From positions 1 to 36,314 of IMG/VR virus record IMGVR_UViG_3300024520_000242: a stretch of 36,314 nt of DNA; one strand, 5' to 3'. This stretch comes from a virus. Below the pieces are notes generated by a model that saw only the letters and a program-made list of their open reading frames with translations, searched no databases and was not told the DNA's origin. Made by a program: the position numbers and the translations under genes. Shown here piece by piece: positions 163-34,446 of this stretch. Position 1 is the stretch's first letter. Each line of letters begins with the position of its first letter.

Positions 163-314
163 TCGTGAGAAAGGTTTTTCTCTGCCTCGACCCAACCGCC
201 AATATCGCCAGCGGCAACGCCAATCGAAGCGATTGCGACCACCGCGCGGATTTGGTGAAGGGTCCGACCAAAATGGTTTTTCGTCTCGCCCGTGAATTCA
301 TACTTGCGGCTCAT
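1..314 (-). CDS. Hexapeptide-repeat (left-handed beta-helix type) protein, N-terminal part; continues at the other end of the window
   Basis: This is the N-terminal portion of a gene read leftward off position 1 and completed at 36314-35959. The start ATG (314-312) overlaps the TGA of the upstream gene (ATGA). The protein opens with MSRKYEFTGETKNHFGRTLH, followed by an AGDIGGWVE motif and LSHDGDAWVYGDA, which matches the well-known N-terminal module of phage and prophage proteins that continue as tandem hexapeptides of the type G-D-A-x-V-Y. Nine 18-bp units follow here. Such repeats are expected to fold as a left-handed beta-helix. The biochemical role in phages is not known to me; a polymer-forming or scaffold role is only a guess. 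The gene belongs to the leftward early operon. Confidence 0.85.
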   Translation of the reverse strand, partial: MSRKYEFTGETKNHFGRTLHQIRAVVAIASIGVAAGDIGGWVEAEKNLSHDGDAWVYGDAWVYGDARVYGDARVYGDARVYGDARVYGDARVSGNAKVYGDARV

Positions 315-637
315 GCTGCTTCTCCCTTGGCTTGCGGGAAGGCCGCCTTGAGCATCGCGTCATGAGCGAGGTCGTATCCATCAACAGCCGGGCCGTTGGA
401 CAGGATCGCCTCGTAATACCGGACGCTGATAAGCTCTTCGCAAATGGCTTCCGAGATGCAGGCGATCTGGCTGCGCTCGATGCCGGTGCCGACAAGCGCC
501 GTGCCGATGGCGGTTGCGCGCTTGATCAGGTCGGTGCGCGCCTCATAGCGCTCCTGAGCCGCTTCACGCTCTTCGGCGGTCTCGCGGTGCTCCCAGCTCA
601 TCCGGCTGAAATCCACATTGTCAGGATAGTTGCTCAT
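311..637 (-). CDS. Unknown protein, first gene of the leftward early operon
   Basis: A 108-residue, charged, mainly helical protein without signal peptide or membrane segment. I do not recognise a family. The ATG at 637 follows a GGGAG Shine-Dalgarno that lies in the right arm of a hairpin (643-665). Its stop overlaps the start of the hexapeptide-repeat gene, so the two are likely coupled. As the first gene after the left operators it should be expressed immediately after infection and silenced in the lysogen, a position where phages often keep host-takeover or anti-defence proteins; that function is inference only. Confidence 0.75.
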   Translation of the reverse strand: MSNYPDNVDFSRMSWEHRETAEEREAAQERYEARTDLIKRATAIGTALVGTGIERSQIACISEAICEELISVRYYEAILSNGPAVDGYDLAHDAMLKAAFPQAKGEAA

Positions 638-642
638 GGTCT

Positions 643-665
643 GTCTCCCGTTTCGTTAGGGAGAC
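643..665 (-). promoter_or_regulatory. Leader hairpin that covers the ribosome-binding site of the first leftward gene
   Basis: The arms GTCTCCC (643-649) and GGGAGAC (659-665) are perfectly complementary with a 9-nt loop. In the leftward transcript the 3' arm contains the GGGAG that serves as Shine-Dalgarno for the ATG at 637. Pairing would hide it, provided transcription starts upstream of 665. Confidence 0.55.
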
Positions 666-725
666 GTTACCACTCTGGTAATGGCAATTGCAAGCAGAAA
701 ATTACCGGGCTGGTAATCGCGTCAA
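665..725 (-). promoter_or_regulatory. Candidate leftward early promoter (PL-like)
   Basis: Two overlapping sigma70-like arrangements are visible on the minus strand: TTGACG at 725-720 with a poor AT-rich -10 near 704-697, and TTGCAA at 693-688 with GTAACG at 670-665 (17-bp spacer). In each case one operator palindrome lies in the spacer, so repressor binding would block RNA polymerase. The choice between them is uncertain. Only the upstream one would transcribe the whole 643-665 hairpin. Confidence 0.45.
667..716. promoter_or_regulatory. Left operator pair, TTACC-N5-GGTAA
   Basis: There are two perfect 15-bp palindromes, TTACCACTCTGGTAA (667-681) and TTACCGGGCTGGTAA (702-716), with centres 35 bp apart. 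The same palindrome occurs as a second pair at 1056-1104 on the other side of the repressor gene. I saw no convincing further copy in the window. They are the likely binding sites of the repressor (726-1019) and/or the Cro-like protein. Confidence 0.85.
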
Positions 726-1019
726 TTACGCCTTCTTTTCAGTGAAGCTTTCGAGTGTGCGGCGGGCCTGATCTCGCCGCGCAGCTGGGATGCGCGACCA
801 TATATCTACGACATCAGCATCGGCCTTCGGATCGCGGCCTATCAGCTCCCATTCCGCGCAGCGGTAGACGCTCGCCAGCGTCTTGAGGTGATCAGCGTGC
901 AGCTTGCGCTCGCCCTTTTCCAAACGGTTCAGGACGGGCGGCGCCCATCCCGCCAGCCTGGATGCTTCGGCCTGCGTCAGATCGCGGTGTTCCCGCCATT
1001 CAATAAGGAAGTGGGCCAT
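726..1019 (-). CDS. Phage repressor, HTH (XRE) family, CI-position
   Basis: A 97-residue protein with an XRE-type helix-turn-helix: LTQAEASRLAGWAPPVLNRL at about residues 14-33, followed by the usual ExGxR continuation. The ATG at 1019 is preferred because longer upstream extensions in this frame would run through the operator region. It lies between the two operator pairs and is divergent from the Cro-like gene, so it is the probable lysogeny repressor. Unlike lambda CI it ends shortly after the DNA-binding domain and has no room for a LexA-like self-cleaving peptidase domain. Induction must therefore work differently from RecA-stimulated autocleavage. It could be assigned Cro and its neighbour the repressor, but its position between both operator pairs favours this assignment. 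Confidence 0.8.
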   Translation of the reverse strand: MAHFLIEWREHRDLTQAEASRLAGWAPPVLNRLEKGERKLHADHLKTLASVYRCAEWELIGRDPKADADVVDIWSRIPAARRDQARRTLESFTEKKA

Positions 1020-1055
1020 GCGCCGATTATGCCGCGCGGGCGGGCGTCCTCGCCA

Positions 1056-1104
1056 TAACCATTCCGGTAAATTGCCGCTTGCGTTGCCGTTACCAACTTG
1101 GTAA
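1056..1104. promoter_or_regulatory. Right operator pair between repressor and Cro-like genes
   Basis: TTACCAACTTGGTAA at 1090-1104 is a perfect copy of the operator. TAACCATTCCGGTAA at 1056-1070 differs by one base. Centres are 34 bp apart, nearly the same as in the left pair. A possible rightward promoter is TTGCGT (1079-1084) with TAAAAA (1102-1107) and a 17-bp spacer; it would start transcription at about the ATG at 1114. The repressor promoter must also lie here, reading leftward. Confidence 0.8.
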
Positions 1105-1113
1105 AAATGGGGT

Positions 1114-2961: not shown

Positions 2962-3349
2962 CCGTCGCGAGTTCTCCGATGCGGTCAAGGCTGAAATCCG
3001 CGCCCGCTCTGGTGGTCGCTGCGAGTGCTACCGCATGACGCCTGACATCATACACATGTTCCCCAAGGTCTGCGACCGCGTGGCGTGTGACGTGGATCAC
3101 ATCTTCGCGGACATTCTGGAGCTGGAAAAGGACGCGCCTCTCACGGCCGATGATGGCGCGCACCTGTCCAAGCCCTGCCACAAGATCAAGACGGCCTCGG
3201 ATCAAGCCTATCGCCGAAAGCGCAATGCGCACCGCGTCCGCAAGGATCGGCCAAAGCCTGGCTGGTTTCAGACTGGCGCGAAGATCGAAGGCGTCAACCG
3301 CTGGCCTGCCAAGGGTTCGCGCAAGCTTCAATCACGGGGGTTTGACTGA
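2954..3349 (+). CDS. HNH-type endonuclease-like protein
   Basis: 131 residues with the layout of HNH nucleases: SGGRCEC near residue 20, the D-H pair in VACDVDHIF near residue 50, and KPCHKIKTASDQ near residue 78 with the last metal-binding histidine. The C-terminus is basic. HNH proteins in early phage operons are often involved in DNA processing or recombination. It is not beside the terminase, so a packaging role is less likely. The stop overlaps the next start (TGATG). Confidence 0.75.
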   Translation: MADRREFSDAVKAEIRARSGGRCECYRMTPDIIHMFPKVCDRVACDVDHIFADILELEKDAPLTADDGAHLSKPCHKIKTASDQAYRRKRNAHRVRKDRPKPGWFQTGAKIEGVNRWPAKGSRKLQSRGFD

Positions 3350-3915
3350 TGACCACGCCATTTGAATGGAACCCGCAGACAGAAGCCCGCTTGTTCGAGC
3401 TTTGGAAGGCCGGACACCCCGGATCTGTCATTGCAAACATCATGCGCGCGCCGTCTCGCTCTGCTGTGATCGGCAAGCTGCACCGCATGGGCTACACCGC
3501 CGCACACCCGGACGCGCCCGCTCGCACGAAAGACATGATCAGCGCTCGGGGCACCCGCACCCGGATCGCAGGCGGTGGCCACGGCGGCAAGCGTGTGGCC
3601 GGCGGTGTCGTCACGGCCCCGATCAAGCGCCAGCCGATGGCCAAGCTGATGACCAGCGCTGCCATCTTTCCGATCCAGATGAACCCGACGCCCTTCCTCG
3701 ATCTTGCGTCTGACCAGTGCCGGTTTGCGCTGGACGACATCAACGCGCCGGCAACAGCCGACACGCTTTTCTGTGGGGCCAAGCAGCGCGACGGGTCGAG
3801 CTATTGCGAGCATCATCACGCGCGCTGCATGAGCCCGTATAAGCGACAGAAGAAATCGCGCGACCGCAGCGCCTTTATCGCCCGTGACAAGTTTGCGTTC
3901 GGGGTGGCGGCATGA
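3349..3915 (+). CDS. GcrA-family cell-cycle regulator homologue
   Basis: 188 residues with both hallmarks of GcrA. The N-terminal helical module (residues 5-50) has W-x-P-Q-T-E-A-R-L-F-E-L-W followed by SRSAVIGKLHRMGY. The C-terminal part has a CRFALDDI segment and an FCGA...YCEHH metal-site-like motif near residues 144-160. In Caulobacter and relatives GcrA acts with sigma70 at promoters carrying CcrM-methylated GANTC sites. A phage copy may redirect host or phage promoters; that is inference. Residues about 60-100 are a Gly/Arg/Lys-rich linker. It overlaps the dnaB-like gene by 4 nt. Confidence 0.85.
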   Translation: MTTPFEWNPQTEARLFELWKAGHPGSVIANIMRAPSRSAVIGKLHRMGYTAAHPDAPARTKDMISARGTRTRIAGGGHGGKRVAGGVVTAPIKRQPMAKLMTSAAIFPIQMNPTPFLDLASDQCRFALDDINAPATADTLFCGAKQRDGSSYCEHHHARCMSPYKRQKKSRDRSAFIARDKFAFGVAA

Positions 3916-5372
3916 CCCTGGCCCTTGCTCATTACGAAGCATCAACCGAGCCGCAGACCGCCCCGCACAATCTGGATGCGGAGCAGGCTTTCCTCGGTGC
4001 CGTCCTGTACGACAACGCGGTCTATCACCGTGTCGCTGACTGGCTGCGCGCTGAGCATTTCTACGACCCGGTGCATGGCCGGATCTACGAAGCCGCAGCA
4101 GCTCTGATCGGCAAAGGCTCTTTGGCTGATGCGGTGGTCTTGAAAACCAAATTGGAGAGCGACGGCGGGCTGGCTGAGATTGGCGGGACCGAATATCTTG
4201 TAGAGCTTGTATCTGGCGCCCCAAGCGGCAATGCCGCGGTTGAATACGGCCGCATGGTCTATGACCTTTATCTGCGCCGGGAGGTCATGCGCTTGGGTCA
4301 GGACATGGTTTCTGATGCTGGCGCCGACATGGACGTGGACGCCCGCGCACTAATCGAGCATGTCGAAGTTCAGCTCTTTGGCCTTGCTGAGCAGAAAACG
4401 GGATCAAAGGGATTTAAGAGCTTTCGGCACCATACCGAAGTCGCGTTAGCGCACGCCGCTGCAGCCTATGAGCGCGGCGGCACTGCGGGGCTTTCAACGG
4501 GGCTCAAGGCGCTTGATGACCAAATGGGCGGACTGCACCCGTCTGACTTGATCATTTTGGCTGCTCGCCCGTCTATGGGCAAGACAAGCCTGGTCACAAA
4601 CATTGCCCACAATGTCGCTCGAAATTATGAGTTCGAGATCGACGCGGACGGGGTTCGCAAGACAAAGCGCGGCGGCATTGTCGGTTTCTTTTCGCTTGAG
4701 ATGTCCGGCGACCAGCTATCCCAGCGCATGATTTGCGACATGGCAGACGTTCCGGGCTGGAAAGTTCGCAAGGGGATGATCAGCCCTGCCGAGTTCGAGC
4801 GCCTGCGCGATGCCGGAATTGAACTGTCCGGCTTGCCGATCCACATTGACGACACCGGGGGCCTTCCAATCGCTCTTCTTGCTGCCCGCGCGCGGCGCCT
4901 CAAGCGCCAGCACGGTCTGGATTTGCTGGTAATCGATTACATCCAGCTCGCTGCCGGATCCAAGCGCGGAGGCCATGAGAACCGGGTGCAGGAGGTGACA
5001 GAAATCACCACGGCACTGAAAGCCCTTGCCAAGGAACTTGAGGTGCCGGTCATCGCGCTCTCTCAGCTTTCGCGGCAAGTCGAGAACCGCCCTGACAAGA
5101 AGCCTCAGCTTTCCGATTTGAGGGAGTCCGGGTCGATTGAGCAAGACGCCGACGTCGTCCTCTTCGTCTATCGTGAAGCCTATTACAAGGAACGCGAGAA
5201 ACCGCGCGAGGACACGCCGGAATACCTCGCATGGGAGGATGAGTTCGCTTCGATTCGCGATCATGCCGAGGTCATTATCGGCAAGCAGCGTCACGGCCCT
5301 ATCGGCACGGCGAAGCTGCGGTTTGATGGCGAGCGCACCCGCTTTAGCGATTGGCCGGAGTATGCATCATGA
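3912..5372 (+). CDS. dnaB: Replicative DNA helicase, DnaB family
   Basis: 486 residues, about full length for DnaB. The N-terminal domain starts near PHNLDAEQAFLGAVL (residues 18-32). The RecA-like motor has Walker A ARPSMGKTS (about 218-226), a FFSLEMS strand, LLVIDYIQL (Walker B) and the SQLSR / DLRESGSIEQDADVV motifs. It unwinds DNA at the phage fork. The phage carries its own helicase rather than a lambda P-type loader, and the next gene is an O-like initiator. A slightly longer loop with charged residues (EIDADGVRKTKRG) follows Walker A, as in other phage DnaB proteins. Confidence 0.95.
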   Translation: MTLALAHYEASTEPQTAPHNLDAEQAFLGAVLYDNAVYHRVADWLRAEHFYDPVHGRIYEAAAALIGKGSLADAVVLKTKLESDGGLAEIGGTEYLVELVSGAPSGNAAVEYGRMVYDLYLRREVMRLGQDMVSDAGADMDVDARALIEHVEVQLFGLAEQKTGSKGFKSFRHHTEVALAHAAAAYERGGTAGLSTGLKALDDQMGGLHPSDLIILAARPSMGKTSLVTNIAHNVARNYEFEIDADGVRKTKRGGIVGFFSLEMSGDQLSQRMICDMADVPGWKVRKGMISPAEFERLRDAGIELSGLPIHIDDTGGLPIALLAARARRLKRQHGLDLLVIDYIQLAAGSKRGGHENRVQEVTEITTALKALAKELEVPVIALSQLSRQVENRPDKKPQLSDLRESGSIEQDADVVLFVYREAYYKEREKPREDTPEYLAWEDEFASIRDHAEVIIGKQRHGPIGTAKLRFDGERTRFSDWPEYAS

Positions 5373-6208
5373 GCACGCAGGCGATCACCTGGGCGATTTC
5401 CTTCCAAGCTGAAAGCGCGACCGAAAAGGCCATCCTTTTGCTGCTGGCAAATTACGCTGACGGCGACGGCGTTAGCTTTCCGGGTCAACAGCGCATTGCC
5501 GAGCAAGCATGCTGCGGTGAGCGCACTGTCCGGCGCATTCTGACCAGCCTTGAAGAGCGGGGCATAATCCGCCGCCTCGAGCGCCGCCGCCGGGACGGAT
5601 CGCGCACATCTGACAGCATCGTTTTGGTGAAATTCCAGCAACCGGCCAATATGGCCGGTAGTGAGGAACCAACCGGCCACTGTGACCTCACCAACCGGCC
5701 ACTGTGTCCGGACCTACCGGCCACCATGGCCGGGCCCACTACGTTTGATACACCAGAAGATACACCAGAGACACGGGCGCGCGCGCAAAGCCTCCCATCG
5801 GATGAGGACTGCACCCGGTTTTTGAAAGCCTTCCCGCCCGGCGGCATGGTCAACGTTGCAAAAGCCTCGCTTCCGCTGATGCTTGCCCGGCCATCGCTCA
5901 AGCTGGGTGGCTTCGAAAAGCTGATTTCTGCGGCGGTCGAGTATCGCCGGCGGGTTGATGAAGCCCAATCCAAGCCGCGAAGCCTTGCGAATTGGCTGGG
6001 GGACTGGCCGCTGGTGGCTGAGTGCGCAGAGGTTGGATCGCCAGTGCTAGCCGCGCCGCAAACAACTGATCAATGGGCGCGGCGGGTCAAATTCTTTGCG
6101 AGCAACGGGCAATGGCATGCGCCAGGCCCGTCCCCCGACCAGCCCGGATGCAAAGCGCCCGCCGGTGTGCTGGCAGAGTTTGGGTATCAGCAGGAGCACG
6201 CAGCATGA
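5369..6208 (+). CDS. Replication initiator, O-like winged-helix protein
   Basis: 279 residues. The N-terminus has a winged-helix domain: SATEKAILLLLANYAD, then FPGQQRIAEQACCGERTVRR and the wing LERRRRDGSRT (residues 8-85), as in helix-turn-helix_36 phage replication proteins. A low-complexity linker (90-145) follows, and its DNA carries four iterons. The C-terminal region (150-279) may contact the helicase. The ATG overlaps the helicase stop (ATGA). By analogy with lambda O, it binds the iterons inside its own gene and brings in the helicase encoded just upstream. Confidence 0.8.
   Translation: MSTQAITWAISFQAESATEKAILLLLANYADGDGVSFPGQQRIAEQACCGERTVRRILTSLEERGIIRRLERRRRDGSRTSDSIVLVKFQQPANMAGSEEPTGHCDLTNRPLCPDLPATMAGPTTFDTPEDTPETRARAQSLPSDEDCTRFLKAFPPGGMVNVAKASLPLMLARPSLKLGGFEKLISAAVEYRRRVDEAQSKPRSLANWLGDWPLVAECAEVGSPVLAAPQTTDQWARRVKFFASNGQWHAPGPSPDQPGCKAPAGVLAEFGYQQEHAA
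5641..5728. other. Putative replication origin: four iterons ACCGGCCA-N3-TG
   Basis: Four copies begin at 5641, 5672, 5694 and 5716: ACCGGCCAATATG, ACCGGCCACTGTG (twice) and ACCGGCCACCATG. The spacings are 31, 22 and 22 bp, roughly three and two helical turns. The first and last are extended into dyads by a following GGCCGG. They lie in the linker-coding part of the initiator gene, exactly as the lambda origin lies in gene O. A 12-bp-period direct repeat (GATACACCAGA at 5747 and 5759) follows. No long AT-rich tract is evident. Confidence 0.75.
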
Positions 6209-29446: not shown

Positions 29447-29575
29447 GACTTTCTGCGGTGTTCCGCGAACGTTCCGCCCCAAACCGCCCTTTTTGGCTGA
29501 TGCGCATGGCCCGCTATTTCAGGCGTTCAGCCCTTTATAGCAGGGCGTGAAGGCCGATTTTCTCCGCTCTGCTGC

Positions 29576-29625
29576 CTAGATTGTGGATCTAGAGGTCTCC
29601 CGTTCAATCCGGGAAGGCGGTACCA
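29576..29625 (+). other. attP: attP core: 3' half of a tRNA-His
   Basis: The sequence folds as the 3' half of a tRNA: anticodon stem CTAGA/TCTAG (29576-29592) with loop TTGTGGA, anticodon GTG (His); variable AGGTC; T stem TCCCG/CGGGA with loop TTCAATC (29598-29614); acceptor strand AGGCGGT, discriminator A, then CCA (29623-29625). No D-arm or 5' acceptor strand is present upstream, so it is not a functional tRNA gene. Discriminator A instead of C fits alphaproteobacterial tRNA-His. The integrase gene ends 17 bp away. Integration would restore the host tRNA. Confidence 0.85.
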
Positions 29626-29641
29626 TTTTCCCCCTTTATAA

Positions 29642-30751
29642 TCAGTCTTTTCCGGGGTTGCCGTCGCGCTCGCCTGCCTCCCCATCGCCCTTGCTGTGGG
29701 TGATTTTGTGGGTAGTCGCTGCAGCGGCCATAGCCTCCAGCGCGTCGGTAACGGCGCTCTCTTCCGGGTGCGCATAGCGTCCGGTCATGGCAATCTGGCT
29801 GTGCCCAAGAAGGTGCTGTGCCGCGCGTAAATCGCCGGTTGCTCTGACGAAGGCCGTGGCGGCATGGTGGCGCCAGTCATGGACCGCCCTGGCGTCGGTG
29901 ATGCCCGCGCGCTTATAGGCCCGCTTCATGGCCGTCTGGAATGTGGCCGGCGGTATCGCCACCAATTCCCCCTCCCGATTTTCCCGAAACCATACCGTGT
30001 CGAGTCCGGCTTCTTTGGCCCGCTTGGCGCGTTCTGCCATCAGTTTACGGTCGCTCTCGATCAGCCTGATTACATGGTCGCCGCCATCTTTGCGGTCGCG
30101 AAGCCAGATTCGCCCGGTCTGCGCATTGAAGGCTGACAGCGAAAACCAGCCCTCCGACATGCGCGCGCCGTAGCGGGCAAAGAATGCCAGGATAAGCCGG
30201 TGATGATCGAGGAGCTGCGCGACCACGGCGGCTTGCTCGTCCGGGGTGAACTCCCGCACCCGGTTTTTGCGTTCTTTAAGCCGGACGGGCTTCCAGTCGA
30301 TTTCCTGAACCTGACACCCGCGCACACGCCGGGCATAGCCGTGAATCGGCCGCATCACGTCGATGATTTCACGGTTTATGGTCGCATTGGCCGGGGCGCG
30401 CTTGTTGTGGGTCTCTTCGGCCCGGCGCGCGGCAATCGCGGCGGCAATGTCCGCGGTAGAAAGCTCGGCTATGTCTTTGGAGAAGTCGAGAACCCGGCGA
30501 CAGACTCGGAGCTGGAAAGCCACGGTGCGCCAGCTTTTGAGGTGCCGGGCGTGGTCGGTAAACCACGCGGTCGCGGCCTCGTTTACGGTAAGCCGTGTCT
30601 GAGCGCTTGTTCCCAGACGGGCAGCGCGGCGGGCTTCGCGCTCGATGTCTTCTGCCTCACGCTTCGACGTACAGCCGGTCGAGGCGCGGTGTCGGATGCC
30701 CGCTTGCCAAAACTCATACCAGTAGACGCGCCCTCGCTTGTAGACCCCCAC
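29642..30751 (-). CDS. int: Tyrosine recombinase integrase
   Basis: 369 residues. N-terminal arm-binding region MGVYKRGRVYWYEFWQAGIR (1-50), SAM-like core-binding domain (about 55-150), catalytic domain (165-345) with Arg197 (GARMSE), Lys221 (DRKDGG), His291-x-x-Arg294 (HDWRHH), His317 (LLGHSQ) and Tyr326 (GRYAH). It recombines attP with the host tRNA-His gene. The start at 30751 lies inside the excisionase gene; the typical YKRGRVYWYEFW beginning supports it. The end of the gene contains one copy of the 19-bp arm repeat. Confidence 0.95.
   Translation of the reverse strand: MGVYKRGRVYWYEFWQAGIRHRASTGCTSKREAEDIEREARRAARLGTSAQTRLTVNEAATAWFTDHARHLKSWRTVAFQLRVCRRVLDFSKDIAELSTADIAAAIAARRAEETHNKRAPANATINREIIDVMRPIHGYARRVRGCQVQEIDWKPVRLKERKNRVREFTPDEQAAVVAQLLDHHRLILAFFARYGARMSEGWFSLSAFNAQTGRIWLRDRKDGGDHVIRLIESDRKLMAERAKRAKEAGLDTVWFRENREGELVAIPPATFQTAMKRAYKRAGITDARAVHDWRHHAATAFVRATGDLRAAQHLLGHSQIAMTGRYAHPEESAVTDALEAMAAAATTHKITHSKGDGEAGERDGNPGKD
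29694..29712. repeat. Right copy of the 19-bp direct repeat, inside the 3' end of int
   Basis: Identical to 29428-29446 over 19 bp. It codes for part of the integrase C-terminal tail (near THKITHSKG). Being both coding and perfectly conserved suggests selection as a DNA site. Confidence 0.75.
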
Positions 30752-30918
30752 TGCTTGCGACCTTCCTCGAATGCCTTCACATCGTCCGGGTCATAGCGGA
30801 TCGACCGCCGACCCAGAACAATGCGGGGCAGCTCACCACTGGCGCTGATTGCGCGCAAGGTCTTTCGATCCACCAGCAGGCGGTGGCAGACCTGTTGTAT
30901 GGTGAGCAGAGACGCCAT
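30583..30918 (-). CDS. xis: Excisionase / DNA-binding HTH protein, overlapping int
   Basis: 111 residues. The first 55 form a MerR/AlpA-type winged helix-turn-helix: LTIQQVCHRLLVDRKTLRAI, then SGELPRIVLGRRSIRYDPDD. The last 50 residues, read over the start of int, are low in predicted structure and may be a by-product of the overlap. The gene overlaps int by 169 bp, much more than in lambda. It would direct recombination toward excision; alternatively it regulates the operon. Confidence 0.7.
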   Translation of the reverse strand: MASLLTIQQVCHRLLVDRKTLRAISASGELPRIVLGRRSIRYDPDDVKAFEEGRKQWGSTSEGASTGMSFGKRASDTAPRPAVRRSVRQKTSSAKPAALPVWEQALRHGLP

Positions 30919-30921
30919 TGG

Positions 30922-31401
30922 TTATTCCTCAACCTGCGTCTGAGAGCGGAGCCACTCCGCAACATAGCCATCTCTGGCGTAATAGTCGTCTTCCTCGGAA
31001 CCCAACGCGAGGCACAAAAGGCGATCCCGCTCATCAGCCCGTATCTCCGCCTCTGTCTTGAGTGGTGCGGCATCGCCTTGAGAGACAAGCCATTCCCAAG
31101 CTGTGCGGGCGTCTGATGTTGCAAGGTTGGGGTCTTCTCCAAGCTCCTTCGCTATCGCCTCATGCTGCCCCCAAGCTCGGGCGCTCATCCGTTGCATTTG
31201 GCACACCCGAATCTTCGCCTCTGTCTTGCGTGGTGCGTCGAGGGCGGCGCGGAGGCGGGCGGCTTCTACTTGCGCATCGCTCGGACACCAAAGGGCCAGA
31301 AGGTTCGCCGCTCGCAACACAGCCTCCACCAGCTCATCAGGTACAGGCTGGGCGGCAAGTTGCTTTGCGCGCTCCCGCTTAACAGCGTCTTCAACGGCCA
31401 T
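30922..31401 (-). CDS. Unknown helical protein
   Basis: 159 residues, charged and helical, with two internal similar segments (RKTEAKIRVCQMQRMSARAW and LKTEAEIRADERDRLLCLAL), suggesting an internal duplication. The ATG at 31401 overlaps the upstream stop (TAATG). No recognised domain. It ends 3 nt before the excisionase. Confidence 0.65.
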   Translation of the reverse strand: MAVEDAVKRERAKQLAAQPVPDELVEAVLRAANLLALWCPSDAQVEAARLRAALDAPRKTEAKIRVCQMQRMSARAWGQHEAIAKELGEDPNLATSDARTAWEWLVSQGDAAPLKTEAEIRADERDRLLCLALGSEEDDYYARDGYVAEWLRSQTQVEE

Positions 31402-31940
31402 TACGCGCCCTCCCCACAAAGCCCAGCCGCGAACTCATGCAGCTCTCCCACGCGATCCAGAGGAACGCTGACCACGATCTGGACGAACGGTTGCTTGACC
31501 GGCTCGGGTCTCTCGGCGGGCTTCGGCTCAGCCTCACGCTTCGCGACGGCGATGGATGCAAGCAGGATGTCGCGGGCGTCGTCGGGCAGGGGTTTGCCGC
31601 GTCGCATTGCTGCGTGCAAATTGCACCAGTAGTCATCGCCTTGAGGCGAACACCCCCACTTGAAACCTGCAGACAACCCGATGGAGTTACCGCCCAGCGC
31701 CTTCTGCGCATCTTCAACAGTGAAACCCCGCACTTCATGCACGAGGTCTTCGCGCCAGCAGAGAAGGTCCGCTTGGTTTTTCTCCCAGTGGATAATGAGG
31801 CCGTCCTTACGGCGCATACGTCCGTCACTCGCCCACACCGGGTATTCTTCGGGGTCAGCCCAATCCTTCAGCTTCACGATCTCACCGTCACGCCGGACGG
31901 CTTCGCGGCCATCAATGCAGTCTTGTTCTGTGATGTTCAT
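31401..31940 (-). CDS. Unknown conserved-looking early protein
   Basis: 179 residues. GGAGAACTGAC precedes the ATG at 31940, which is therefore preferred over a longer frame. The N-terminal part is compact (EYPVWASDGRMRRKDG, then HEVRGFTVEDAQKALGGNS), and a Pro-rich linker at about 137-150 leads to a short beta-like C-terminus (VQIVVSVPLDRVGELHEFA). Family not recognised. Confidence 0.65.
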   Translation of the reverse strand: MNITEQDCIDGREAVRRDGEIVKLKDWADPEEYPVWASDGRMRRKDGLIIHWEKNQADLLCWREDLVHEVRGFTVEDAQKALGGNSIGLSAGFKWGCSPQGDDYWCNLHAAMRRGKPLPDDARDILLASIAVAKREAEPKPAERPEPVKQPFVQIVVSVPLDRVGELHEFAAGLCGEGA

Positions 31941-31941
31941 G

Positions 31942-32325
31942 TCAGTTCTCCTCCATAGTAGCGAACCAATCGACTTCACCGGTCACAGCAAGGTGACGGA
32001 GGGCGCGGACAGCGTGAGATGCGGTGATGTCGAACACGCCCACGCCGTGTTCGTAGCCGGTCGGGATGAAGAGGTCGCAGGCGCGTTCGTGCTCCAACCC
32101 CAAGGCATCCCTTGCCCAGCCAAGCACGTTGTCAGCGCTCAGCGGACGGCGGTGGTCGATTCTCGTGGCCTGGCCAGTCGTGTCAAAGCGGGCCACCGTC
32201 CACCCGGCGATGCAGGCCGCAGTGCCACAAGGGTGCTTGTGACCATAGGTGCTCATGTCAAACACCATACCTTTGTGACCGGCTTCGATCAGGTCAGCGA
32301 TTTCCAGGATGCGTTCTTTGTTCAT
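31942..32325 (-). CDS. Phage protein with CGTAACIAGW motif
   Basis: 127 residues. The central HPCGTAACIAGWTVARFD resembles a conserved motif of small phage proteins of unknown function. No membrane segment. It starts with the same 18-bp initiation region as the next gene (identical at 31934-31951 and 32319-32336). Its stop is one base before that gene's ATG. Confidence 0.65.
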   Translation of the reverse strand: MNKERILEIADLIEAGHKGMVFDMSTYGHKHPCGTAACIAGWTVARFDTTGQATRIDHRRPLSADNVLGWARDALGLEHERACDLFIPTGYEHGVGVFDITASHAVRALRHLAVTGEVDWFATMEEN

Positions 32326-32402
32326 GTCAGTTCTCCAAGAACGAGCGCGGCCGTCAGCAGCGCGATAATGGCCCACAGGGTAAACTCCCGGCGTCTGGTC
32401 AT
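32322..32402 (-). CDS. 26-residue single-TM micropeptide
   Basis: MTRRREFTLWAIIALLTAAL and six further residues: a positively charged start and one hydrophobic helix. Both ends overlap neighbours by ATGA, which argues that it is translated in series. Function unknown. Confidence 0.5.
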   Translation of the reverse strand: MTRRREFTLWAIIALLTAALVLGELT

Positions 32403-32557
32403 CCTCCGGCCTTCCTCATTTCATCCCATGCGATCCGCTTCTCGTCAGGCGACAGGCACGACAACAGGGGCTTGTTTGCTTCGATCAACTGGTCACGTGT
32501 CATTGGAGACACGACCCAGAGGCGGGTGACAGCCAGGATCCAGTCGAGGCGGGTCAT
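32399..32557 (-). CDS. Small unknown protein (52 aa)
   Basis: 52 residues beginning MTRLDWILAVTRLW and ending with a charged helix (SPDEKRIAWDEMRKAGG). Both ends overlap neighbours by ATGA. No recognised domain. Confidence 0.55.
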   Translation of the reverse strand: MTRLDWILAVTRLWVVSPMTRDQLIEANKPLLSCLSPDEKRIAWDEMRKAGG

Positions 32558-33072
32558 GCGGCGCGCTCCTGCTTAATCAGCACGCCCGGCTCTACGCCGA
32601 TCAGATCCGCGATGTATTCCAGGATTGCCTGCTTGCTTTCCTCAAAGCGCTTTTTGCCCATCGCCTTCATGGACTGGCTTTGCGCGGTAAGGTGGGTGAC
32701 GGTTGCGCCTTCGATGGTGACGTAGGAAAACTCGTCAATCTCGCGGATAAATGCAGCCACCCGGACGGCTTCCGCCTTGCTGGCAGCGACAATTGACCTA
32801 ACGTCGCAATACCCGGTTCGGATCAGCGCGCGTTTGCGCAAGTGGTCCGGGGTCGCGGCCCACGGCTGGCAAGAATGCTCATCAGGCAGGCTGGCCCATG
32901 CTTCCGCAATCCACGCGAAAGCATGGTTGTGGCTGGCGATGGACCGATCTTGCTGCGGTGCCATAGTGATGATCTGGCCCACCTCATACGCTTCGCCAGC
33001 GATGCGGGCCTGATATGAATTGGCAGGCTCAAATGCCGCGCCGGTCCAGCGTGTGAGGACGGGCCGGGTCAT
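32554..33072 (-). CDS. Unknown phage protein associated with the recombination genes
   Basis: 172 residues. The segments SIASHNHAFAWIAEAWASLP and TPDHLRKRALIRTGYCD are familiar from proteins encoded beside phage recombination genes, but no function is known to me. The C-terminal helix (SMKAMGKKRFEESKQAILEY) is basic. It overlaps the exonuclease gene by 4 nt. Confidence 0.7.
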   Translation of the reverse strand: MTRPVLTRWTGAAFEPANSYQARIAGEAYEVGQIITMAPQQDRSIASHNHAFAWIAEAWASLPDEHSCQPWAATPDHLRKRALIRTGYCDVRSIVAASKAEAVRVAAFIREIDEFSYVTIEGATVTHLTAQSQSMKAMGKKRFEESKQAILEYIADLIGVEPGVLIKQERAA

Positions 33073-33698
33073 GCGGCCTTCTCCTGTCCAAACCGGGCTT
33101 CAAGATCGGAAACCGCCGCGTGAAGCTCACCGAGGAAAGCCTCGACTTCGCTTTCCAGATCGGCGATGCGCTCGTCATCGCGCTCGATGCGCTGGCAGAA
33201 CATCTGCATGGCTGCGGGAAGGCGCGGGTCGAAAGATACAAAATCGCACCAGCTCCGATCCGTGCAGGCCATCTGCCATTGCATCTGGATGATGTAGTCG
33301 GGGGCAATCCGGCCGACGCGCAGGGTTTCCAAATGCGTGGCCGTGTTCGGGCACTTGATTTCGACAAGCCCTTCATTCCCCACAAGGCCATCAGGGCTGG
33401 CGCCGGATTCGTTGATGCGCGGATGCTGGATAAAGCCAACCTCCTTCACCTCAGCATCGCGGTAGAACTCATAGGCCGTGCGTGCCTGCGGCTCGGTGTC
33501 GTTACCCCAAGCCATCGCGCCAGACTGAAAGGTCTCCTCGCGATAGCCGGTCAGCCGCTCGCAAATGAGCTGCGCCAGATAGTTCTTGCGCGATGCCGCC
33601 GGGCCGCTTTTGGTCTTGCGAACAATATCAGCAATGCGAGATCCGGTAGCCTTGCCCATGCGCTCGGCAAACCATTCTTCTGTGCGTTGATCAGCCAT
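33069..33698 (-). CDS. YqaJ-like recombination exonuclease
   Basis: 209 residues from the ATG at 33698. The YqaJ/lambda-exonuclease fold is indicated by EWFAERMGKATGSRIADIVR, the DTEPQARTAYEFY region, and the catalytic SPDGLVGNEGLVEIKCP (about residues 101-117: D, E-x-K). A C-terminal coiled coil follows. It should resect DNA 5' to 3' and supply single strands to the ERF protein encoded directly upstream, with which it overlaps by 8 nt. Confidence 0.85.
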   Translation of the reverse strand: MADQRTEEWFAERMGKATGSRIADIVRKTKSGPAASRKNYLAQLICERLTGYREETFQSGAMAWGNDTEPQARTAYEFYRDAEVKEVGFIQHPRINESGASPDGLVGNEGLVEIKCPNTATHLETLRVGRIAPDYIIQMQWQMACTDRSWCDFVSFDPRLPAAMQMFCQRIERDDERIADLESEVEAFLGELHAAVSDLEARFGQEKAA

Positions 33699-34446
33699 TT
33701 GCCCGCTCCCTCCGACGCGCCGCCAAAATATCGACGGCATCCGCGAACCTTTCGGCGGGCAGATCGTCCAAAGCCTCAATGCGCAGAACTCGGCAGAACT
33801 TGGCCTCGTTCACGCTGAGCTCCTTCATTTCCCGGCGGAGATTGGCCAGATGGCTTTCTCCGATGCGTTCGACAGAAATGCGCCCGGCAAGATGTCCGTC
33901 ATCGTCGCCCGGATCGTCCTGATAAATCAGATTAAGGATCGCGCCGGCAGAGTACCGCTTGCCATAGGAAAGGGACGAGCCGACGCCTTGCACAACGTTC
34001 TTGCTGCCGGACGTGTCAATGGGCAGGCGAAGCGTTGTTTGCTCGCTGTGGCCCTCACGGTGCGCCAGGACTGCTGTAACGTAGAGGCAGCCGTCGCCTT
34101 CCTCGGTGCGGAAGGACAGGCCAAAACCATGTCCGTGAAGAACAGGGCGGATAAGCCGGTCGGTGTCTTCCCATTTGCCATAGGTAGACTGCACCTTGTC
34201 ATCCCGGTTCTTGATCGCACCCCGCTTGGGGATGACTGGCAGATCCGGCTGCATGGCGGCGAAGTCGGCGTTGAATGCCTCTTTTGCCGATCGGTCCAAA
34301 ATGCGCTGCTGCATATCAAGCAGGCGTTCCATTTTGGAAACATCGACGTCGGGGTTCAAGGCGGCGCGCTCGATAACCGAGACAATCGCCGCGGAATTGC
34401 TTGCTGGCGTCTCAGGCTGATCAGCGATCAGGGCGTGGGTGGTCAT
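33691..34446 (-). CDS. erf: ERF-family single-strand annealing protein
   Basis: 251 residues. The ERF signature includes FNADFAAMQPDLPVIPKRG, STYGKWEDTDRLIRPVLHGH and the Gly-rich QGVGSSLSYGKRYSAGAILN. It anneals complementary strands and circularises or recombines phage DNA. The ATG at 34446 has GGAG directly after a U-tract of a terminator (34461-34499), so its expression may depend on readthrough. Confidence 0.85.
   Translation of the reverse strand: MTTHALIADQPETPASNSAAIVSVIERAALNPDVDVSKMERLLDMQQRILDRSAKEAFNADFAAMQPDLPVIPKRGAIKNRDDKVQSTYGKWEDTDRLIRPVLHGHGFGLSFRTEEGDGCLYVTAVLAHREGHSEQTTLRLPIDTSGSKNVVQGVGSSLSYGKRYSAGAILNLIYQDDPGDDDGHLAGRISVERIGESHLANLRREMKELSVNEAKFCRVLRIEALDDLPAERFADAVDILAARRRERANG

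Follow-up and report, generated by a model that had tools for sequence, protein, structure and literature searches.

In phage lambda, looping between the operator sets works through the C-terminal domain of CI, and OR2 lies at about −42 of PRM. Among temperate phages of alphaproteobacterial hosts, Rhizobium phage 16-3 has a switch (C/immC) with an HTH-type C repressor and operators on both sides, the operator sequence being ACAA-N-TTGT. C.AhdI-type controller proteins are small HTH dimers which act on tandem sites. A general description of the C repressor switch of phage 16-3 is found in PMC10460002. In the lactococcal phage TP901-1, CI and its divergently encoded small HTH partner MOR are combined with three operator sites, OR, OL and OD, within 1 kb, as described in PMC7250872.

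The locus described here is part of the virus record IMGVR_UViG_3300024520_000242 (positions 1-36,314; the whole stretch of 36,314 nucleotides that was analysed is called the window). It is similar to lambda in the order and directions of operators, repressor, cro, left recombination/integration operon and right replication operon, in having predicted operators over PL and PR, and in a probably leaderless repressor start with an operator about 43 bp upstream, which is the OR2 position. The lambda order OL/PL and OR/PRM/PR is fitted into 0.44 kb. Each set contains two operators and not three as in lambda, the centre spacing is 34-35 bp compared with about 24 bp, and the pairs are 0.39 kb apart compared with about 2.3-2.4 kb. 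Further, unlike in lambda, the predicted −35 is located between the two sites, cro is probably leaderless as well, the operator sequence is different, and the repressor comprises only 97 aa without the CI C-terminal domain. Phage 16-3, as it is generally known, has a repressor and an operator that differ from those of the window. TP901-1 differs since its CI has a separate oligomerisation domain and acts with MOR as a complex; the sites of the window flank the repressor gene and not the partner gene as in TP901-1, and a TP901-1-type third operator was not found, as no site with at most one mismatch lies to the right of position 1104 in the window. C.AhdI-type restriction-modification controllers match the repressor fold in the HTH domain only, differing in tail and architecture, and no restriction-modification genes were recognised adjoining the window repressor. 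We consider it most likely that the region is the lysis-lysogeny immunity switch of a temperate phage, lambda-like but compressed, with predicted operators, repression, activation and competition by Cro.

Gene order and the two regulators

The window codes for terminase, portal, P22-like coat, DnaB, an O-like replication protein and GcrA, and also for an integrase, an excisionase-like HTH protein, ERF and YqaJ; from this gene set it was assigned to a temperate phage. Since GcrA is typical of alphaproteobacteria, the host is probably an alphaproteobacterium. Both contig ends (1-163 and 36207-36314) share an 18-bp tandem repeat, which is part of the gene of a YdcK-like beta-solenoid protein, and the window was therefore read as a circularly permuted phage genome broken within this repeat. 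When the left 2.8 kb was compared with phage DNA, the sole match was in the repeat gene at this end. The features relevant to the switch are the following:

311..637, minus strand: first gene of the leftward (PL) operon, 108 aa, with the Shine-Dalgarno-like GGGAGA upstream
667..681: predicted operator, OL1-like, gene-proximal, over the −10/−35 spacer of predicted PL, exact match, TTACCACTCTGGTAA
702..716: predicted operator, OL2-like, exact match, TTACCGGGCTGGTAA
726..1019, minus strand: repressor gene, 97 aa, HTH_3, modelled as a five-helix HTH with a C-terminal helical hairpin
1056..1070: predicted operator, OR2-like, repressor-proximal, one mismatch, centre 44 bp upstream of the repressor ATG, TAACCATTCCGGTAA
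1090..1104: predicted operator, OR1-like, cro-proximal, exact match, TTACCAACTTGGTAA
1114..1347, plus strand: cro-like gene, 77 aa, putative HTH (weak HTH matches, position)
3349..6208, plus strand: rightward early genes (GcrA-like, DnaB helicase, O-like replication protein)
29642-30751, minus strand: integrase, leftward block
30583-30918, minus strand: excisionase-like HTH_17 protein, leftward block
33069-33779, minus strand: YqaJ, leftward block
33691-34446, minus strand: ERF, leftward block

The repressor and cro-like genes are divergent with operators between them, and a rightward gene series leads from cro into the replication genes. Beyond the repressor gene, a second operator set heads the leftward recombination/integration operon, whose block at 29642..34446 (minus strand) is reached from PL across the permuted contig ends. 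A family search with the product of the first leftward gene (311..637) gave no match.

The 97 aa protein was well above the gathering cut-off of HTH_3 (PF01381; E=1e-9, 38.7 bits against 23). Its structure model, based on a six-sequence alignment (pLDDT 79.6), consists of a five-helix HTH followed by two C-terminal helices. In Foldseek, solved structures (C.AhdI, DdrO, ImmR, P22 c2, 434 Cro) matched mainly the HTH part, for which 1y7y was the nearest solved fold (E 3.3e-3). Neither family search nor model revealed an S24/lambda-CI-type C-terminal oligomerisation and self-cleavage domain, so that RecA-driven self-cleavage as in lambda is unlikely. Protein searches of viral and genome contigs found no close sequence relative of the repressor. 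The cro-like protein stayed below the Pfam cut-offs (HTH_3, PF01381: 14.9 bits against 23; HTH_31: 21.2 against 27), and its HTH character is weakly indicated by these matches together with the gene position. Thirteen apparent relatives of this protein were discarded, as they read like terminase-small-subunit-type proteins with only an HTH stretch in common.

Several other features of the genome were observed. A homologue of the cell-cycle regulator GcrA (3349-3915; PF07750, 2e-17) is encoded directly before DnaB and may be responsive to host CcrM methylation. A 22-bp tandem repeat of 2.6 copies (5668-5724) inside the O-like replication gene possibly represents origin iterons, by analogy with lambda O. 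Beside the integrase gene, positions 29575-29626 resemble the 3' half of a tRNA-His, with the anticodon arm CTAGATTGTGGATCTAG, the anticodon GTG and a terminal ACCA; ARAGORN reported no whole tRNA there, and this stretch is the probable attP.

Paired palindromes in the window and in other phages

The preliminary description had claimed four copies of TTACC-N5-GGTAA, one of them imperfect, as two pairs of closely similar spacing on both sides of the repressor gene. All four were located: three exact sites start at 667, 702 and 1090, and the site at 1056 (TAACC ATTCC GGTAA) has one mismatch. The centre spacing is 35 bp in the left pair and 34 bp in the right pair, and the pair centres, on either side of the repressor gene at 726..1019, are 388.5 bp apart, which bears out the described geometry. 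The gap from the repressor stop to the gene at 311..637 contains the left pair, and that between the repressor and the divergent cro-like gene the right pair. No other site with one mismatch or none exists in the whole 36 kb, and 200 dinucleotide shuffles yielded a mean of 0.175 such sites per genome with a maximum of 2. When the family was not named beforehand (any 5-bp arm, spacer of 2-9, at least three exact copies within 500 bp), 4 of the 200 shuffles gave such a cluster (p~0.02), so that the motif by itself is suggestive and firmness comes from its recurrence in other phages.

For this, IMG/VR was scanned for two exact sites with a gap of 17-21 bp, and a permuted palindrome served as control. 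The scan yielded 42 loci in about 20 clusters, of which 29 had an HTH gene within 600 bp and 15 had two; the control gave 12 loci, three with an HTH gene and none with two. Some of the HTH seeds were taken from target loci, but the E-values were far below any bias of this kind. When one position was left free in the pair scan, 8 further loci, none with an HTH gene nearby, or 2 further loci, one with an HTH gene, were obtained, which suggests that chance accounts for only one or two of the exact pairs. In genome contigs, 32 pair loci were detected; HTH genes accompany 16 of them, almost all in Bacillales, and in many cases the pair was located between a repressor and a small HTH gene. The paired motif, for which a search of relatives had been proposed, thus recurs beside HTH gene pairs in other phages.

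The full layout (OL pair, repressor, OR pair, divergent cro) was found in four further lineages with divergent repressors. Their site positions, in order of coordinates and with a stroke between the two pairs, are:

L099: 3583, 3617 / 3987, 4021; all exact
L072: 2108, 2142 / 2515, 2548; 2142, the repressor-proximal OR site, has one mismatch
L091 group: 5933, 5966 / 6314, 6348; 6314, the repressor-proximal OR site, has one mismatch
L125: 3305, 3340 / 3839, 3874; 3839, the repressor-proximal OR site, has one mismatch

The L091 group comprises L091, L059, L082, L093, L094 and L098, and its left operon begins with YqaJ. The repressor-proximal OR site is the sole imperfect site in four of the five lineages, the window included. 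Since the scan required exact left pairs (in L099, either pair), this bias is absent only when the two sites of an OR pair are compared with each other: the imperfect site was on the cro side in none and on the repressor side in four of five.

The sister repressors are 14-31% identical to that of the window in a loose alignment which also includes L174, and a profile of the L099, L072 and L091 repressors placed the window repressor no closer than HTH proteins in general. A close homology with these three, hinted at by an FLxEW-like stretch, was given up, as the profile search lent it no support. Of the phages with a syntenic rep/cro pair, L174 is the nearest by replication genes, its DnaB being 65% identical. 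Its rep/cro gap (2650-2730) harbours a different palindrome, GTAACTTGTAGTTAC, and no second pair, so that operators, too, evolve quickly in sequence, as immunity would lead one to expect; this palindrome is a candidate for a changed immunity.

Predicted promoters and the proposed switch

Three promoters were predicted in the window:

664..693, minus strand: PL, −35 TTGCAA (693-688), 18 bp spacer, −10 TAACGT (669-664) overlapping OL1
1026..1031, minus strand: −10 of PRM, CATAAT, 6 nt before the repressor ATG, with a poor −35
1079..1107, plus strand: PR, −35 TTGCGT (1079-1084), 17 bp spacer, −10 TAAAAA (1102-1107), 6 nt to the cro ATG

In all five lineages, at PL as well as PR, the gap within the site pair contains a TTG(A/C)NN hexamer, and a spacer of 16-18 bp separates it from the TAA on the outer edge of the gene-proximal site. 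The hexamer is a perfect TTGACA at both promoters of L125, and the −35 of PR in the window matches at just 3 of 6 positions. With the −35 between the sites and the −10 at the site edge, the gene-proximal site fills the −35/−10 spacer, and this promoter geometry accounts for the within-pair spacing of 33-35 bp. A central pentamer ending in T, giving the extended −10 TGGTAA, was found in 8 of 10 promoter-proximal compared with 2 of 10 distal sites (Fisher p=0.023).

The −10 of PR is 5-7 nt from the cro ATG in the five lineages, so that cro is probably leaderless; the PL genes have a leader, mostly with a Shine-Dalgarno-like sequence. A −10-like hexamer scoring 4-5 of 6 is likewise present 6-7 nt upstream of the repressor ATG in all five (at random positions, scores of at least 4 occur in about 8% and of at least 5 in about 1%), which makes a leaderless repressor mRNA probable. 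In every lineage the centre of the repressor-proximal OR site precedes the repressor ATG by 43-45 bp, the start codon of L125 being ambiguous. The −35 of the repressor promoter is best in L099 (5 of 6), followed by L125 (4 of 6); in the other three lineages (window, L072, L091) it scores just 2-3 of 6.

In the proposed switch, the 97 aa repressor most likely binds each palindrome as a dimer. At the gene-proximal sites it would cover the −35/−10 spacer and the −10 of PL and PR, by which both early operons would be turned off. From an imperfect site about 44 bp upstream, a leaderless start, a good −10 and a poor −35 we infer that the repressor, bound to the weak repressor-proximal OR site, most likely helps RNA polymerase to start at its own promoter, like lambda CI at OR2; positive autoregulation is therefore possible by this analogy. 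The imperfect site at the OR2 position would then be an activator position for the repressor promoter, more than a spare site. The divergent Cro-like protein probably rivals the repressor at these sites and drives the phage into lysis. The earlier comparison of the locus with a compact lambda OL/OR having two sites each fits position, gene order and promoter anatomy, and the layout is shared by the four other lineages. Points that speak against the lambda-like reading are a repressor with no close sequence relative in the collections searched, the different palindrome of L174 and the weak −35 of PR in the window.

The repressor-side OR site could also serve negative autoregulation only, as OR3 does, without activation and with two mutually blocking repressors. 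Its position between the repressor and cro promoters and its weaker match are as expected of OR3, and the usable −35 boxes in L099 and L125 weaken the argument for activation there; however, in five lineages the site centre lies 43-45 bp upstream of the predicted start, outside −35 and −10 and at the distance of lambda OR2, and three of them (window, L072, L091) have a poor −35. We regard this reading as rather unlikely. Quite improbable is that the palindromes have the Cro-like protein as their only or main cognate binder, with another target for the 97 aa protein. Both are HTH proteins whose binding specificity is unreadable from sequence here, and the sister-repressor profile gave its best score, below significance, to the Cro-like protein of the window, but the sites flank the 97 aa gene on both sides and cover PL, which a lysogenic repressor must control, and in the sister phages the flanked gene is an HTH gene co-directional with the left operon. 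A reading of the palindromes as transcription terminators, or as inverted repeats arisen by chance, can hardly be entertained: on the minus strand, past the repressor stop, TTTTC comes after the hairpin at 702-716, but the stems are short and A/T-ended and the other three sites have no U-tracts on the relevant strand. The terminator reading was rejected, as the terminator scan flagged none of the four palindromes and the sequence itself, beyond its symmetry, recurs beside HTH genes.

The lambda-like switch was also described as allowing cooperative or looped binding. The layout makes a loop possible, with two pairs 388 bp apart that are paired likewise in the four other lineages, but neither sequence nor model gave a positive sign of repressor tetramers or loops. 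Lambda-like bridging of the pairs by the repressor, with a loop of ~390 bp, is unlikely, because the protein consists of the HTH and a two-helix tail only (pLDDT 79.6), with no S24/CI C-terminal domain, and the short within-pair spacing is already explained by the promoters. In lambda, loops connect two operator sets, of three sites each, across about 2.3 kb (PMC5880393).

A tentative operator class

No description of the TTACC-N5-GGTAA motif was found in the open-access literature searched. Tentatively, the motif may define a widespread, apparently undescribed class of phage operators, with the promoter built into the site pair, a minimal 2+2 switch with two leaderless regulators, and repressors diverged beyond recognition. 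If the lambda-like reading is right, the locus would be a minimal lambda-type switch of four operators and two small proteins in less than 0.75 kb (left gene to cro end), found in a phage group without a model system, and the motif would serve as a sequence tag for such switches in metagenomic phages. With the geometry fixed over five lineages, positive autoregulation and the need for looping would be testable in a natural two-by-two system.

Two large viral contigs, L024 (632-4149) and L046, carry many copies of TTACC-TCCGA-GGTAA, 36-680 bp apart and with no HTH gene nearby; these are a different repeat family or regulon. In L080 (762-1013), L084, L136, L137, L163 and other Bacillales-type loci, the same operator pair as in the window lies between a repressor and a small HTH gene, and several of them have a third exact site at the end of the small HTH gene (at 999 in L080), reminiscent of OD in TP901-1. 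With a pair and a third site past the small HTH gene, loci such as L080 resemble TP901-1.
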